Below are positions 1,399-34,495 of a stretch of DNA of 34,495 nucleotides, one piece after another. This DNA comes from Candidatus Gastranaerophilales bacterium (GTDB lineage: Bacteria; Cyanobacteriota; Vampirovibrionia; Gastranaerophilales; Gastranaerophilaceae). A model generated the notes under the pieces. The model was not told the DNA's origin and searched no databases. It saw nothing but the letters and a program-made list of their open reading frames with translations. A program made the position numbers and the translations under genes. The first letter of the stretch is position 1. Each line of letters begins with the position of its first letter. Where the stretch lies: NCBI GenBank assembly GCA_944324315.1, contig CALUVW010000019.1:1-34495 (forward strand), read 5' to 3'.

Positions 1399-2301
1399 AT
1401 GGAAGATAAAAAAGAAATTTATTATAAGTATTTTGAAGAAAAAATATTGCCATTGGTTTTGCCCCTGGAAAAAATGAGAAAAAAAACGGTTTTAAAAACT
1501 GCATTTTTATCTCTGTTATTTTTAATTTTGGGAATTGCATTCACTTTTTTATTTATTGTTATTATGTTTTACGACAGGTTTATTTATATACTTTCTCCGA
1601 TAGTACTATTTTTGATGTATGTTTGCTTTATTAAAAGCATAATAGTGCTTATTGTCGCTGGAAAAGATTTTCAAGACAAACTACAACAAAGAGTTTTGCC
1701 TTTATTTTTTGAGCCTGTTGCGCATTTTACGGAATGGCCTAAAGATAGAAATTTAGAAAATATTATTGAATCTTTGCTATTTTATAATTTTGATACTCAG
1801 GAAGAAAATTTCAGTTTTTTTGGCTTGTATAATAATACTAATATTATTATTTCTGATACAAAATTGACAATGCCTGTAAAAGGGGCTGTTAAACCAGATT
1901 TATTCAAGGGTATTATTATACAATTAGAATTTGATAAATCAATCAATAATCATGTAATTTTGATGTCTAAAAATGAGAAAAAAGCCAATCCTTATCACGC
2001 TTTTAAATCGGATATACCTGAATTAAATCGTTATTTGGATTTATTTCAAAAAAAGGCAGGTAATATTAATTTTATAACTCCCGATTTTTGGAATGCAATA
2101 AAAAAACTCGGGGAGGCTTATACTGCAAAGGGCTTTGATTTTTCATACAGAAATAATGTTATAGTTATTGCTCTCAGACAAAAAAGACCATTGAGATTTG
2201 GCTTTTTGTTTAAATCGTTACTGAAAGTAAAAAATTACGATGAACTTATTGAAAGATTCATCGTAATTTATGACTTAATTGATATTTTAAATAATAATTA
2301 A
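1399..2301 (+). CDS. DUF3137-like two-TM membrane protein
   Basis: The protein is 300 residues. It has a charged N-terminus (MEDKKEIYYKYFEEKILPLV), two adjacent hydrophobic helices at about residues 33-57 and 60-87, then a long soluble domain. The N-terminal pattern (K-x-L-P-x-lE-x-x-R before a TM pair) and overall plan resemble DUF3137 proteins, whose function is unknown. No Shine-Dalgarno is obvious before the ATG. The stop codon overlaps the stop of the convergent GT5-like gene by 4 bp with no hairpin between them, so read-through antisense transcripts are possible. The family call is by resemblance only. Confidence 0.6.
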   Translation: MEDKKEIYYKYFEEKILPLVLPLEKMRKKTVLKTAFLSLLFLILGIAFTFLFIVIMFYDRFIYILSPIVLFLMYVCFIKSIIVLIVAGKDFQDKLQQRVLPLFFEPVAHFTEWPKDRNLENIIESLLFYNFDTQEENFSFFGLYNNTNIIISDTKLTMPVKGAVKPDLFKGIIIQLEFDKSINNHVILMSKNEKKANPYHAFKSDIPELNRYLDLFQKKAGNINFITPDFWNAIKKLGEAYTAKGFDFSYRNNVIVIALRQKRPLRFGFLFKSLLKVKNYDELIERFIVIYDLIDILNNN

Positions 2302-5051
2302 GCAGCTTTATTCACAGTTTTATCCGGTTCTTGAGGTTTAGTTCCTGCTGTATTTGGAGCATTGTTTTTCTTATGCATATAAGCATAAGCAGCAGTCCCT
2401 GCTGCAATTACTGCAACTGCGCTTCCTATAAGAATTTTACTCCATTTATTTCCAGTTTGTTTTGTCGTATCAGAAAGTTTAACAGTTACATCCTTAACCG
2501 TATCTGCAGTTTTTTGAGCTTTTTCTATTACTACACGTTTAAGTTTTTCAATCTTTCCGTTAAATTCACCAACAAGACGTGTTAGAGGTTTTTGATTTCT
2601 AGCTTCCATGCCTTTTGGAATTTCAAAAGCATCTTCGGTATAAAGCTGTATTGTAGATCTTCCGTTGTTTAAAGCGTTGTTATTATGCCAGTCGAATTTA
2701 GACCGACCTCCATTCACAGCCATTGTTTTGTAAACTTCTGGATTATTATGATATGTCATAGCCATTTTAGCAAACATATCTGCAACTTCATCAGATGCTG
2801 CTTCAATACGCATTGCATCAATTTGATCTCCTGAAAGTTTTGTTAAATCTGTATCTTTTGGCCATGGTAAATTTTTAACATCTACCATAAAAGGATCTCT
2901 TGTTAAAAAGCCGTTTGCTTTTTCTGCGTCTTTTGCAGTTGTAATAACCATTTCTCCAGCACCGCCTGTGTTCAAAGAACCTGCCGGTGTTGCACTTTGT
3001 AAACATTCAGGAGCTGACAGACCTTGCGGTTCACCTCTTGATGTAAATATTCCGTATGTACAGCATGTTATTAGTCTGTTCGGGAAAAATCCGTTTACAT
3101 AGCAGGCATTTTGTTTATATTTACCTCCATCAAGAGTTTGAATTTTGTACAGCAGATCTTTTATCAAATGGAAGTCACCGCAGCCGCCATCATCCATTTT
3201 CCATGGATCCGGTCCGCTGCCCAATATAAGTTTTGAGTGTAATCTGATTTCTTCCGGAATTGATTTGTTTTGTAGAAACTTTAAAAAGCCTTCCAGAGTA
3301 ATTGGGTATCCCTTTTGGGCATCAGAACGTCCCCATCCTGCCCATAGAATATCTTTTTCATCAAATTTAGATAATCCGCCGAGTACATATTTTTTCTTTT
3401 CAATTAGGTCTTTAGCAAAGAATAAATTATTTAAAGCATCGTCTGTACTTGCATTTGTATAATTATGTATATCATTAAGTCTTTTTTCTGTTGCTTCTCC
3501 CACCATATCAAGAAAAGCTTTTGTATTTGCACGTTTTGCTTTTACAATTTTTTCACCGCTATCTTTTGCCGGATCATACGGAGTATACCAGCTCATATCG
3601 GCAGATAGTCCGTTACCAGATCCCATTGTTGCTTTCGGATCATTAATTTTCATAAATTCGATGTTACATCCGTTTGGAATACCTCTGATTTTATCTCCTT
3701 CTTTATCAGCCTCTCTGAATAAAGTTGTTAGACCTCTAGCCATATCTTGATATTTAATAACTTCATCCGCGAATGTATGTGAAACGTGATTTGCAAATAC
3801 ATTATACGGGTTTGCTTTTCTAGCAATCAGCGGAGCTATTGACTGGTTAAAGTTGCCGTTGTCGTCAATATAATGCTGCAAGAACGGTTTAATAACTTTG
3901 TCAACAATTTTTTGTTCGTCAGCTGATAATTGTTTGTGTTCTAATCTGTGCTTGTCTATTTCCAACAACTCAGGGAATTCCTGTAAGGCTGCAAGTTTTT
4001 TATAATCATCAGGAGTTGCTTTATATCTGAGAAATTCCAGAGCATCTCCGACTGTTCCCTGATAATTTGACATTGGGTTGTGGAAAATATCCACAATTTT
4101 CATCCCTCTGTAGTAAGGGTCATCTACAGAACGGTTAATAACAGCTTCTGTTATAGGAAAAGCGGTTCTACAGTGACCAATTATGTTTGCCGGAGCAAAG
4201 TTCCCCTGGCTTTTAGTATTTAATTTGGGAAGCATGTCCGCAGTTGCTTCTTGAAAGTCTCTTGTGTATAAATTTACATGCGGATGATCTTTCATATCCG
4301 GTGAATATGTGTATACTTTCTGGAATTTTGCTAGATCTCCAACATGTACACAATATACAATATCTTTTTTGTTTTTATCTGGCAAAATCATCTGATAGAC
4401 TTTATAAGGAATTGATTTTAAACTTCCAAGATTATTTTCATCAATTCTTTGTATAACACCGGAAGCTTCTGTCGGAATCAATTCTCTGTATGCAGATATT
4501 CTCATATTTTGAACTTTAACATCACCTGCTTTTGGTAATTCCGGTGTATCCTGAACTACAAATTTAATTCTGTCCAAGTCTGAATTTGGTATGTTAAGTC
4601 TTTTAGCAATAGATTCTTTAGTATCGTTTATAGAAGCTTTTATAAACAAATTTTCAGGCATTCTGTTCTTTTTGAGTGCTTCTTTATATTCATCTCCTTT
4701 AGGTACTATAAGGACTTTAATCCCGCCTTCCGGATTGTTATATGAAACATACGGAACAACATGCCTAAAGTCAAAACCAGCTTTATTTAGAGCGTTCGGT
4801 AACTGATCAGCGACCTGCCCTGCTCCTCCTGCTTTATACATTCCAAGTCCGATGTAGCTGTCTTCAACCGAGACAGAAAGCCCTTGTTTTATATTTTTAT
4901 CTGCATTTCCGCTGAAGGTTATTAAATAGCTTTGCATATCGCGGGGGGGGGGCGTTATTGAAGGCTTAGCCTGATACGTTGATGACGTATCTTTAATTCT
5001 TGTTTGGGCACTGTTTGATTGAATTTTTGGCATTACTGAATAAACACGCAT
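2298..5051 (-). CDS. Large membrane-anchored starch/glycogen synthase-like (GT5) protein with in-frame C10 tract
   Basis: The protein is 917 residues, nearly twice a bacterial GlgA (about 480). GT5 landmarks appear in order: KAGGAGQVADQLPNAL at 73-88 (ADP-sugar loop, normally KtGGLaDV), HNPMSNYQG at 324-332, VSHTFADEV at 423-431, IPNGCN at 458-463, GRSDAQKG at 574-581 (RLtxQKG), and SRGEPQGL at 671-678 followed by TGGAGE at 695-700 (catalytic-Glu loop, SRFEPCGL in GlgA). A helix at about 874-894 near the C-terminus suggests a tail anchor. Residues 34-36 (PPP) come from a C10 tract; losing or gaining one base would abolish expression. The start at 5051 has a GGAT-type RBS and is supported by an N-terminal peptide shared with the gene at 17202-17705. 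Large insertions separate the motifs, so the sugar donor and product are unknown. Confidence 0.75.
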   Translation of the reverse strand: MRVYSVMPKIQSNSAQTRIKDTSSTYQAKPSITPPPRDMQSYLITFSGNADKNIKQGLSVSVEDSYIGLGMYKAGGAGQVADQLPNALNKAGFDFRHVVPYVSYNNPEGGIKVLIVPKGDEYKEALKKNRMPENLFIKASINDTKESIAKRLNIPNSDLDRIKFVVQDTPELPKAGDVKVQNMRISAYRELIPTEASGVIQRIDENNLGSLKSIPYKVYQMILPDKNKKDIVYCVHVGDLAKFQKVYTYSPDMKDHPHVNLYTRDFQEATADMLPKLNTKSQGNFAPANIIGHCRTAFPITEAVINRSVDDPYYRGMKIVDIFHNPMSNYQGTVGDALEFLRYKATPDDYKKLAALQEFPELLEIDKHRLEHKQLSADEQKIVDKVIKPFLQHYIDDNGNFNQSIAPLIARKANPYNVFANHVSHTFADEVIKYQDMARGLTTLFREADKEGDKIRGIPNGCNIEFMKINDPKATMGSGNGLSADMSWYTPYDPAKDSGEKIVKAKRANTKAFLDMVGEATEKRLNDIHNYTNASTDDALNNLFFAKDLIEKKKYVLGGLSKFDEKDILWAGWGRSDAQKGYPITLEGFLKFLQNKSIPEEIRLHSKLILGSGPDPWKMDDGGCGDFHLIKDLLYKIQTLDGGKYKQNACYVNGFFPNRLITCCTYGIFTSRGEPQGLSAPECLQSATPAGSLNTGGAGEMVITTAKDAEKANGFLTRDPFMVDVKNLPWPKDTDLTKLSGDQIDAMRIEAASDEVADMFAKMAMTYHNNPEVYKTMAVNGGRSKFDWHNNNALNNGRSTIQLYTEDAFEIPKGMEARNQKPLTRLVGEFNGKIEKLKRVVIEKAQKTADTVKDVTVKLSDTTKQTGNKWSKILIGSAVAVIAAGTAAYAYMHKKNNAPNTAGTKPQEPDKTVNKAA
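4943..4952. repeat. G10/C10 homopolymer inside the GT5-like gene
   Basis: Ten consecutive G on the plus strand, read as C10 in the coding strand within codons 33-37 of the GT5-like protein. At this length the long frame is open. It has the same length and G-C10-G context as the tracts at 24563, 28425 and 34407. Confidence 0.9.
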
Positions 5052-23686: not shown

Positions 23687-24600
23687 TTACAATCTAACCG
23701 GATAATCGTCTTTAATCTGCCATCCGTCAAACATGATAAGAAGAGCACAACTGTTAATGCTGTAATTTTCATTACTTTCGTCTTGCTTGCATCCTTTAAT
23801 CATTTTGTCTCTGTCGCCGTAAATATATCCTTCTGTATAATCACCATCTTCATTGTCATACATAGTAAATCCGGCCGGATAAAAATATCCCATGCGCATA
23901 CCGCCTTGCCTGCTTGTTTTATAGTCAAGAAAGAAATAAAAGAGATCTACTCCCTGTTTATTAGGCCCTTTAATTCCGTTTATATCGCAGGTAACATGTA
24001 TTTGTTTCCAGGGATTAAAGAAACATATTGTACCATCACTCATAGTAAGTTTTGTATAAGATGTTTCATCATTATAGTTAGCAAGCGGGTAGTCAAAATG
24101 TGCAGGAAATTCTGCCCCGTTTAAGTATGGAATAAGTGCAGACTGCATCCATTTTTCCATTTCTGTCTTGTCACCTCCACTGGGTGTTATAGCCTGAACA
24201 GACGGTTCCGTCCAAGTATCGTGAGCTATCGAAAGTGTAACTGCCTGATTCATGACAGTATAAAGTTTTTTCAATCTGGCTTCAATCTGAGATTTTCTGT
24301 AATTAGTCATGACCGTCGGAATAGTCATCGCTGCAACAACGCCAATAATGCCGAGAGTGATAAGAACTTCTGCAAGAGTAAAAGCTGGGCGCCGAATATT
24401 GCCAGAGGTGTCTACATGCATACCATCCTCCCTTATTCGGGAGGAGCGGGGTGGGTATTGAGCATCACCCATCCTCTTATCCTTCCCTGCCAGGGAAAGG
24501 ATGATATTACCCCGAGAATAATTTTTAAAATTCCTGAAAAGTGCGTCTATGTTTGACTTTTCGGGGGGGGGGCAGTCCTGAAAGCATCTTCTCTATTCAT
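23687..24600 (-). CDS. Type IV prepilin-like protein, out of frame with its start at a C10 tract (phase-OFF)
   Basis: From the ATG at 24600 (AAAGGAGTTTGAAA upstream), nine codons lead into a C10 tract at 24563-24572, and translation then stops at TAG within five codons. With 11 C (or 8) the frame runs through without a stop to 23687, giving about 304 residues. The body has NIRRPA then FTLAEVLITLGIIGVVAAMTIP, a prepilin N-terminal helix with Glu at +5, cleaved probably A|F. A C-terminal globular domain follows with Cys residues and an end (CALLIMFDGWQIKDDY) shared with the decayed prepilin at 6845. The ON form has an unusually long leader (about 75 residues), partly encoded by stem-loop repeat DNA at 24426-24502. 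An internal ATG at 24472 could give a shorter product without the tract. Confidence 0.85.
24426..24502. repeat. Two GC-richer stem-loops inside the prepilin leader region
   Basis: TCCTCCC/GGGAGGA (24426-24432/24439-24445) and the ATCCTTCCCT / AGGGAAAGGAT pair (24479-24488/24492-24502, one bulge) bracket a GC-richer segment. It looks like an inserted dispersed repeat that has become part of the prepilin reading frame. Confidence 0.55.
24563..24572. repeat. C10 switch tract in prepilin leader
   Basis: Ten G on plus (C10 in the coding strand), codon 10 onward of the prepilin. At this length the start is one base short of being in frame with the pilin body. Confidence 0.9.
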
Positions 24601-27634: not shown

Positions 27635-28461
27635 TTACGGCAGGCATTCAAAATAGCGTCTGGATTTATCATAAGGACATTTATCCATTAAGGCATAATA
27701 CGCACATCCTATACCGTTTCCTTTTCTTTTGGTCGTTAGGTTGCAGGGATTTCCCGCGCGCTGCTGCTGCCATTCACTCGGGTATGCTCCGTTTTCAATC
27801 CCTTCTAGAATTTCTTCTTCTGAAATGTTTTCATCTGGAACAAGACCGGATATAAAATCTTTATTGTTAAGAGTGAATATGAAAATATCATGGCCTAACT
27901 TATTCGGCGCTTTTTTCCCATTTGTATCTACCACAAACCATAGAGTATACTCACGAATTTCAAAACTGATAAAACTTCCGTCATTCATAGCTCTTGTTCC
28001 GAATAAGGCATTTCCAGATGCTGCAAGAGCGGACTTAGTAGTAATTTCATTATTGTACGTATATATTTTTTCAGAAAGTCTGTCTATAATCTGACCATTA
28101 CCCAAAAATTTGTTTAAACTGTTTGAACATTCTATTTCATTAATATATACACCTGCATTATATTGAGTACAATATTGAAAAAGATTATCAACTCCAAGAT
28201 CATTTTTTGCAAACATGACTACTTGAGAAATAACGGATAATGCCTTTTTGTAACCGCTTTCAAGAGCTTTTTTTCTGTGATCTTGAATAAGTGAGGGTAA
28301 AGTTAAAGCCGCTACTACACCGATGATACCTAAAGTAATTAAAACTTCCGCAAGAGTAAAACCTTTTGAATGCTTATAAAAATTTTTAATTTCCTTATTT
28401 TCCCTTGCTAAACGGTAGTTTTGCGGGGGGGGGGCAGTCTCAAAGCATCATTTCTATTCAT
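27635..28461 (-). CDS. Type IV prepilin-like protein, out of frame with its start at a C10 tract (phase-OFF)
   Basis: The ATG at 28461 follows AAAGGAGTTATAAA. After nine codons (MNRNDALRL) a C10 tract at 28425-28434 leads to a stop (TAG) five codons later. With 11 C the frame is open for about 275 residues to the stop at 27635: KHSKG, then FTLAEVLITLGIIGVVAALTLP (cleavage G|F, Glu at +5), then a globular domain with four or more cysteines (QYCTQYN, IECSN, NPCNL, YFECLP). The longest frame that avoids the tract starts at an internal ATG at 28216, which lacks the pilin helix, so the tract controls the functional product. The gene is flanked by a terminator at 28523-28556 and its own promoter. 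Confidence 0.87.
28425..28434. repeat. C10 switch tract in prepilin leader
   Basis: Ten G on plus (C10 in the coding strand) directly after codon 9. The length is one base short of the in-frame state, as at 24563. Confidence 0.9.
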
Positions 28462-34383: not shown

Positions 34384-34495
34384 ATGAAAAGCATTACGAG
34401 TTTATCGGGGGGGGGGCGCATCTAGGCTCAAACTCCTTATTTTCAAAATTTTGTGCTACGCACGTAGCCTACTCTCAAAATATTCGTCGGGCAGC
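34384..34495 (+). CDS. Start of a prepilin-like gene, out of frame at a G10 tract, cut by window edge
   Basis: The ATG at 34384 begins MKSITSLS, then G10 (34407-34416) leads to TAG at 34423-34425. With 11 G (or 8) the frame is open to the window end and reads GGGAHLGSNSLFSK, CATHVAYSQ, NIRRA. The last part matches the leader just before the pilin helix at 24472 (MHVDTSGNIRRPA followed by FTLAEV). This is therefore most likely the leader of another prepilin whose FTLAEV helix lies just beyond the window. A perfect 6-bp inverted repeat (GCTACG-CA-CGTAGC) is in the leader. The RBS is weak. The identity of the gene is inferred because the body is not visible. Confidence 0.65.
34407..34416. repeat. 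G10 switch tract near the right edge
   Basis: Ten G on the coding (plus) strand after codon 7 of the right-edge ORF. One more G would open the frame to the end of the window. Confidence 0.9.

Follow-up and report, generated by a model that had tools for sequence, protein, structure and literature searches.

The closest described systems are the phase-variable loci of Campylobacter and the sortase-pilus switch of Bifidobacterium breve. In Campylobacter, poly-G/C tracts are most often 9 nt (53%) or 10 nt (26%) long (PMC6321876). At the pilus locus bbr_1889 of B. breve, G10 accounts for 93.4% and G9 for 6.5%, and the length of the G tract sets the ON or OFF state (PMC9187656). The tracts described here, from a Gastranaerophilales genome and its genus, resemble those of Campylobacter in being G/C homopolymers of ~9-10 nt in coding starts with a frame-defined ON length, in lying in surface and glycan genes, and in belonging to a small AT-rich genome. 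However, the Campylobacter lengths are spread over 9 and 10, whereas ~86% of the tracts here are exactly 10, and they lie mainly in pilin genes with one shared ON register. As in B. breve, the bacterium is a gut commensal, the pilus genes are mostly OFF and one slip from ON, and a G10-11 tract lies between a secretion-signal ORF and the pilin body. B. breve has two such loci in each genome and builds sortase pili; here the type IV prepilin-like (FTLAE) genes number tens to >100 in a genome. The tight length, the ON register common to most pilins, the opposite register of a GT5-like gene and the locking of the tracts to one replication strand are new. A literature search found no paper tying Gastranaerophilales to phase variation, and its sole Melainabacteria match was a flagellin survey.

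The window is the whole stretch of 34,495 nt that was analysed from the genome under study (G000). G/C runs of at least 9 nt give 8 nested 9-mer matches in it, forming 4 tracts, versus 0.01 expected from 100 dinucleotide shuffles, which rules out a chance origin of the tracts. The features of the window are as follows:

2298..5051, minus strand: starch/glycogen-synthase-fold protein (GT5-like, GT-B) of 917 aa, with residues 1-49 disordered and a hydrophobic C-terminal helix at 869-894
4943..4952, minus strand (G10 on plus): C10 tract of the GT5-like gene, in frame at 10 nt; it gives the codons of Pro34-36 and the first base of Arg37
4953..4965, minus strand: GCCTTCAATAACG, the 5' flank of the GT5-like C tract on the C strand, similar to the core common to pilin tracts
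24563..24572, minus strand: C10 in the leader of a pilin-type gene (ATG 24600, downstream ORF 24472..23687); in frame with +1 nt
28425..28434, minus strand: C10 in the leader of a pilin-type gene (ATG 28461, downstream ORF 28216..27635); +1 nt needed
34407..34416, plus strand: G10 at a gene start (ATG 34384), with a leader like a pilin leader at L042:7892, in another part of the genome; the gene runs past the window end

Translation of the minus-strand ORF 5051..2298 reads SIT-PPP-RDM around the tract, and the loss or gain of one base in the tract ends the product at 42 or 51 residues. The gene shows two features expected of slipped-strand phase variation: a G/C homopolymer of at least 8 nt, beyond chance, in the 5' part of the coding region, and a product abolished by a one-base change. 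The sequence-only reading of this DNA had described an in-frame C10 at 4943-4952 encoding PPP at residues 34-36 of a 917-residue protein, had expected length changes to truncate that protein, and had taken the tract to be of the same kind as in pilins. Translation confirms the first two points, and the third agrees with the three other window tracts (24563, 28425 and 34407), which lie in starts of pilin-type genes.

We put the probability at about 0.7 that the C10 tract mediates slipped-strand phase variation, with the enzyme ON by default, the pilins OFF by default and G10 on the leading strand. A genus-wide contingency tract prone to replication slippage would sit in a dispensable, disordered N-terminal tail of the GT5-like enzyme. 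Its length would settle at 10 nt, and the frame of each gene would set the meaning of 10. The GT5-like gene, in frame at 10, would be ON until a slip of +1 or -1 left a stub of 42-51 residues, and the pilin-type genes, in frame at 11 (or 8), would be OFF, each turning ON once its own tract gained a base. We infer that slippage takes place at the GT5-like locus itself and is frequent enough to mix phenotypes. If this reading is true, any one cell would display only a few pilins, drawn at random from a large repertoire, with the glucan synthase usually on, which would be a testable route for a commensal to evade immunity or phage.

The GT5-like protein reaches 26.8 bits against Pfam Glyco_transf_5 (GT5), above the cut-off of 22.7, over a short stretch only. 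A search of the PDB with the family profile retrieves starch and glycogen synthases at 3.6e-13. In Foldseek, the AlphaFold model (mean pLDDT 81) has granule-bound starch synthase 6gnf as a match (TMt 0.79, E value 5.7e-18), and the Pfam and Foldseek results together place the protein in the GT5 / GT-B starch-synthase fold. With GlgA and granule-bound starch synthase (PDB 6gnf, 2qzs; GT5) it shares this fold, an E-x7-E-type motif (EPQGLSAPE) and a KxGG-like motif. Its length of 917 aa, against about 480, its hydrophobic C-terminal helix and its disordered N-terminal tail set it apart from these enzymes, and its 22.8 bits are far below the GlgA (TIGR02095) cut-off of 328. The tract appears from the model to lie in a tolerant tail ahead of the entire enzyme, since residues 1-49 are disordered. 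No signal peptide was apparent on inspection of the sequence, and the helix at 869-894 suggests at most a tail anchor. While the earlier label "GT5-like" is backed by the profile and fold matches, "surface/anchored" is not, and the enzyme has the fold of intracellular starch/glycogen synthases. The proposal that envelope polysaccharide and pilus variation are coupled is likewise unsupported, because each tract should slip alone and the envelope need not be where the enzyme acts; independent slippage would not by itself couple them, and at length 10 the GT5-like gene and the pilins are in opposite registers.

For the pilin-type genes, each tract was translated from the nearest RBS-ATG with one base removed, as is, and with one base added, in three genomes. 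Among ten-base tracts, 120/123 need +1 to join the RBS-ATG leader to the pilin and 0/123 need -1. Of the 3 scored in frame, one (L049:2293) fits the +1 design as well when read from its usual ATG. The need for +1 holds for C-sense and G-sense pilin genes and for all three codon phases. Genus-wide, 16/16 G-flanked 11-nt copies are in frame, and 9-nt copies are out of frame in 17/17, with 16/17 offset as expected for an ON length of 11 (or 8). Changes in length are seen directly in four orthologous pilin pairs of two close species, G015 and G007, which differ by exactly one tract base at 88-91% DNA identity over 1.0-1.4 kb; these pairs were picked where the G015 tract is not 10, and show that change occurs, not its rate. 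We note that the pilin-type genes at 23687-24600, 27635-28461 and 34384-34495 have their true starts upstream of the tract; as the assembled tract lacks one base, ORF callers start them downstream or omit the leader. Most such pilins are missed or truncated by gene callers and in proteomes of these common uncultured gut cyanobacterial relatives, since the length present in the assembly is the OFF one.

In 420 kb of G000, G/C runs become rarer with length, as expected, up to 6 nt, and then peak at 10: runs of 6, 7, 8, 9, 10 and 11 nt number 8, 0, 1, 1, 58 and 4, respectively. The whole genome has 118 ten-base pattern matches, and its exact tracts comprise 97 10-mers, 9 11-mers and 9 9-mers (about 115 of 9-11 nt). 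Across 31 genus genomes (G002 and G006 left out), the totals for exact 9-, 10- and 11-nt tracts are 137/1595/132, so that about 86% are 10 nt and about 7% each are 9 and 11. The genus tracts are usually G-flanked. By pattern counts, tens to >100 tracts are present in most of the genus's species, and other genera of the order have 0-6 matches. Four genomes, G000, G007, G018 and G002, were sampled in stretches picked near tracts, and proportions outside these stretches rest on pattern counts. Undercalling of homopolymers in long reads is unlikely as a source of the peak: AATCG-C10-GAG is carried by named Gastranaerophilales records, which place the genus in this order and look short-read (NODE/k141 contig names), and undercalling is also at odds with G002 tracts of up to 16 nt and with the consistent frames of the 9-, 10- and 11-nt copies. 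Loss of mismatch repair was rejected as the cause, as MutS domains are found in 33/33 genomes. G002 is an outlier, with tracts of 8-16 nt in both orientations; its pilin tracts are 12-16 nt long and, in 11/11 cases with a long frame, out of frame, mostly needing -1.

Compared with Campylobacter, the peak at exactly 10 is narrower and could reflect something other than free slippage. Tentatively, and with considerable doubt, we entertain that length ten, with G10 on the leading strand and inside a DNA core, is actively maintained, by a dedicated replication-linked mechanism or programmed +1 recoding, and thereby sets the expression of pilins by the dozen together with that of a few glycan enzymes, with opposite defaults. 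In a related and likewise unlikely reading, selection would keep the tract at 10 because RNA polymerase slippage, adding one base to part of the transcripts, or -1 ribosomal frameshifting yields the out-of-frame pilins at a set level; for the GT5-like gene, the unslipped majority would be the productive one. The frame relation alone is compatible with programmed transcriptional slippage, and the same +1 nt shift is found in all six sense-by-phase classes. Tracts of 9 and 11 nt are about equally rare, and some genomes (G007, G016) have no clear in-frame 11-nt pilin copy. However, the 9- and 11-nt copies, ~7% each, follow the same design and differ between orthologs, and the 12-16 nt pilin tracts of G002 mostly need the opposite shift (-1). 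Slippage at the RNA level also leaves unexplained the leading-strand bias of G10 and the flank core shared by tracts of opposite sense (both described below). Slipped-strand phase variation would account for the frames, the +1 and -1 variants, the differences between orthologs and where the tracts lie.

Homologues of the GT5-like gene are present in 31/33 genus genomes. Against the possibility raised beforehand that they start downstream of the tract, they share a conserved MR[VI] start upstream of it, which rules out a downstream start codon. The C10 tract is carried by 11/31 species (G000, G003, G004, G012, G016, G017, G019, G040, G041, G042 and G047), of which G004 and G042 are near-identical at the locus and are not independent counts. 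The comparison of tract length in relatives suggested by the sequence-only reading gives exactly 10, in frame, in 11/11 carriers, and no length variant was seen at this locus among the assembled genomes of the 11 carrier species. An intact tract was not seen in 20 homologue-bearing species (among them G039, which was not read). Two homologues carry apparent decayed tracts: G010 (CCCCCACCCC) keeps PPPR with an interruption, and G022 (CCCCCCCTCC) keeps APPP. The other possibility raised beforehand, a non-homopolymeric proline stretch of constant length, holds in part. The length is constant and G010 has PPPR with an interrupted tract, but the carriers keep the homopolymer.

The constant length in 11 species, the loss in many, the lack of any variant among the carriers and the PPPR and APPP left by interrupted tracts could all be expected of a mere proline linker or a hitchhiking repeat without switching. 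We consider this explanation improbable. Compared carriers are only 35-52% identical at 4-fold sites, so that synonymous sites are saturated, and CCC makes up 9.5% of Pro codons, yet the third codon positions of the tract remain C. Together these numbers indicate that the homopolymer itself is kept, not merely PPP, and ten C's would not persist as a by-product of PPP conservation. The tracts of the carriers start at several positions, 99-127 nt from the ATG, and in two codon phases, so that the tract arose at least twice. Moreover, the prolines lie in a disordered tail, and many homologues have the tail without prolines.

The orientation of the tracts follows replication. All tracts sampled in G007 carry G on the strand whose 4-fold GC skew is positive (the leading strand), and G018 and G000 agree save in stretches with weak or noisy skew; disagreeing tracts total 16/161. 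The raw GC skew of the window is slightly negative, and its 4-fold sites make plus the leading strand, in agreement with G10 on plus. Gene direction was rejected as the cause of the orientation, as it often disagrees locally where the skew agrees. On the C strand, a core, AGCYnnRRAWYG-C10-GA, is common to the tracts whether their gene reads them as C or as G. The flank GCCTTCAATAACG of the GT5-like tract reaches a C-sense pilin PWM score attained by 0.4% of random genomic sites, a score difference that is not a p-value, because the families are related. The near-strict leading-strand orientation, the exact length and the shared core might also mark a polar DNA element (a recombination hotspot, a KOPS- or Chi-like sequence or a protein site) with a secondary frame effect, but we consider this very improbable, as such an element would not require nearly all tracts to fall in the opening codons of genes and to keep a fixed relation to the frame, and the ten-base tract is absent from G013, G023, G039 and G045. 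These four genomes, which lack any exact ten-base tract in the genus pattern count, are useful controls for what maintains the tracts. With their strand lock and tight length, the tracts are a natural system in which to study how homopolymer length is determined.

Genes other than pilins also carry tracts in the stretches of G000 that were sampled. GT2 glycosyltransferases are in frame at 10 (L041, L048) or need +1 (L058), a sugar epimerase has an in-frame C8, an unknown protein of 433 aa is in frame, and an EF-hand-like ORF needs +1. The extension from pilins to glycan genes anticipated by the earlier reading is supported by the three GT2 genes and the epimerase besides the GT5-like gene.

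Several further observations were made. A polysaccharide-type cluster of G002 (L189-L190, G002:C4:48000-82000) carries G/C tracts of 9-15 nt in both orientations and mixed frames; it resembles classical phase-variable capsule loci, and G002 tracts are longer than those of its relatives. G009 (L225-L229) has a family of nine-base tracts, C9-GACGGGATTTT, none of which was seen with a long frame that has a ribosome-binding start. In G000:C2 (L042:3037-18925), two tract loci are duplicated identically ~11 kb apart, which may be a direct duplication or an assembly artefact. Many pilin leaders (L043, L045, L049, L054 and others) contain a repeated coding segment, VILNLFQDLVFRCKDAKRHRC and its variants, which looks like an in-frame repeat element between the tract and the prepilin motif.
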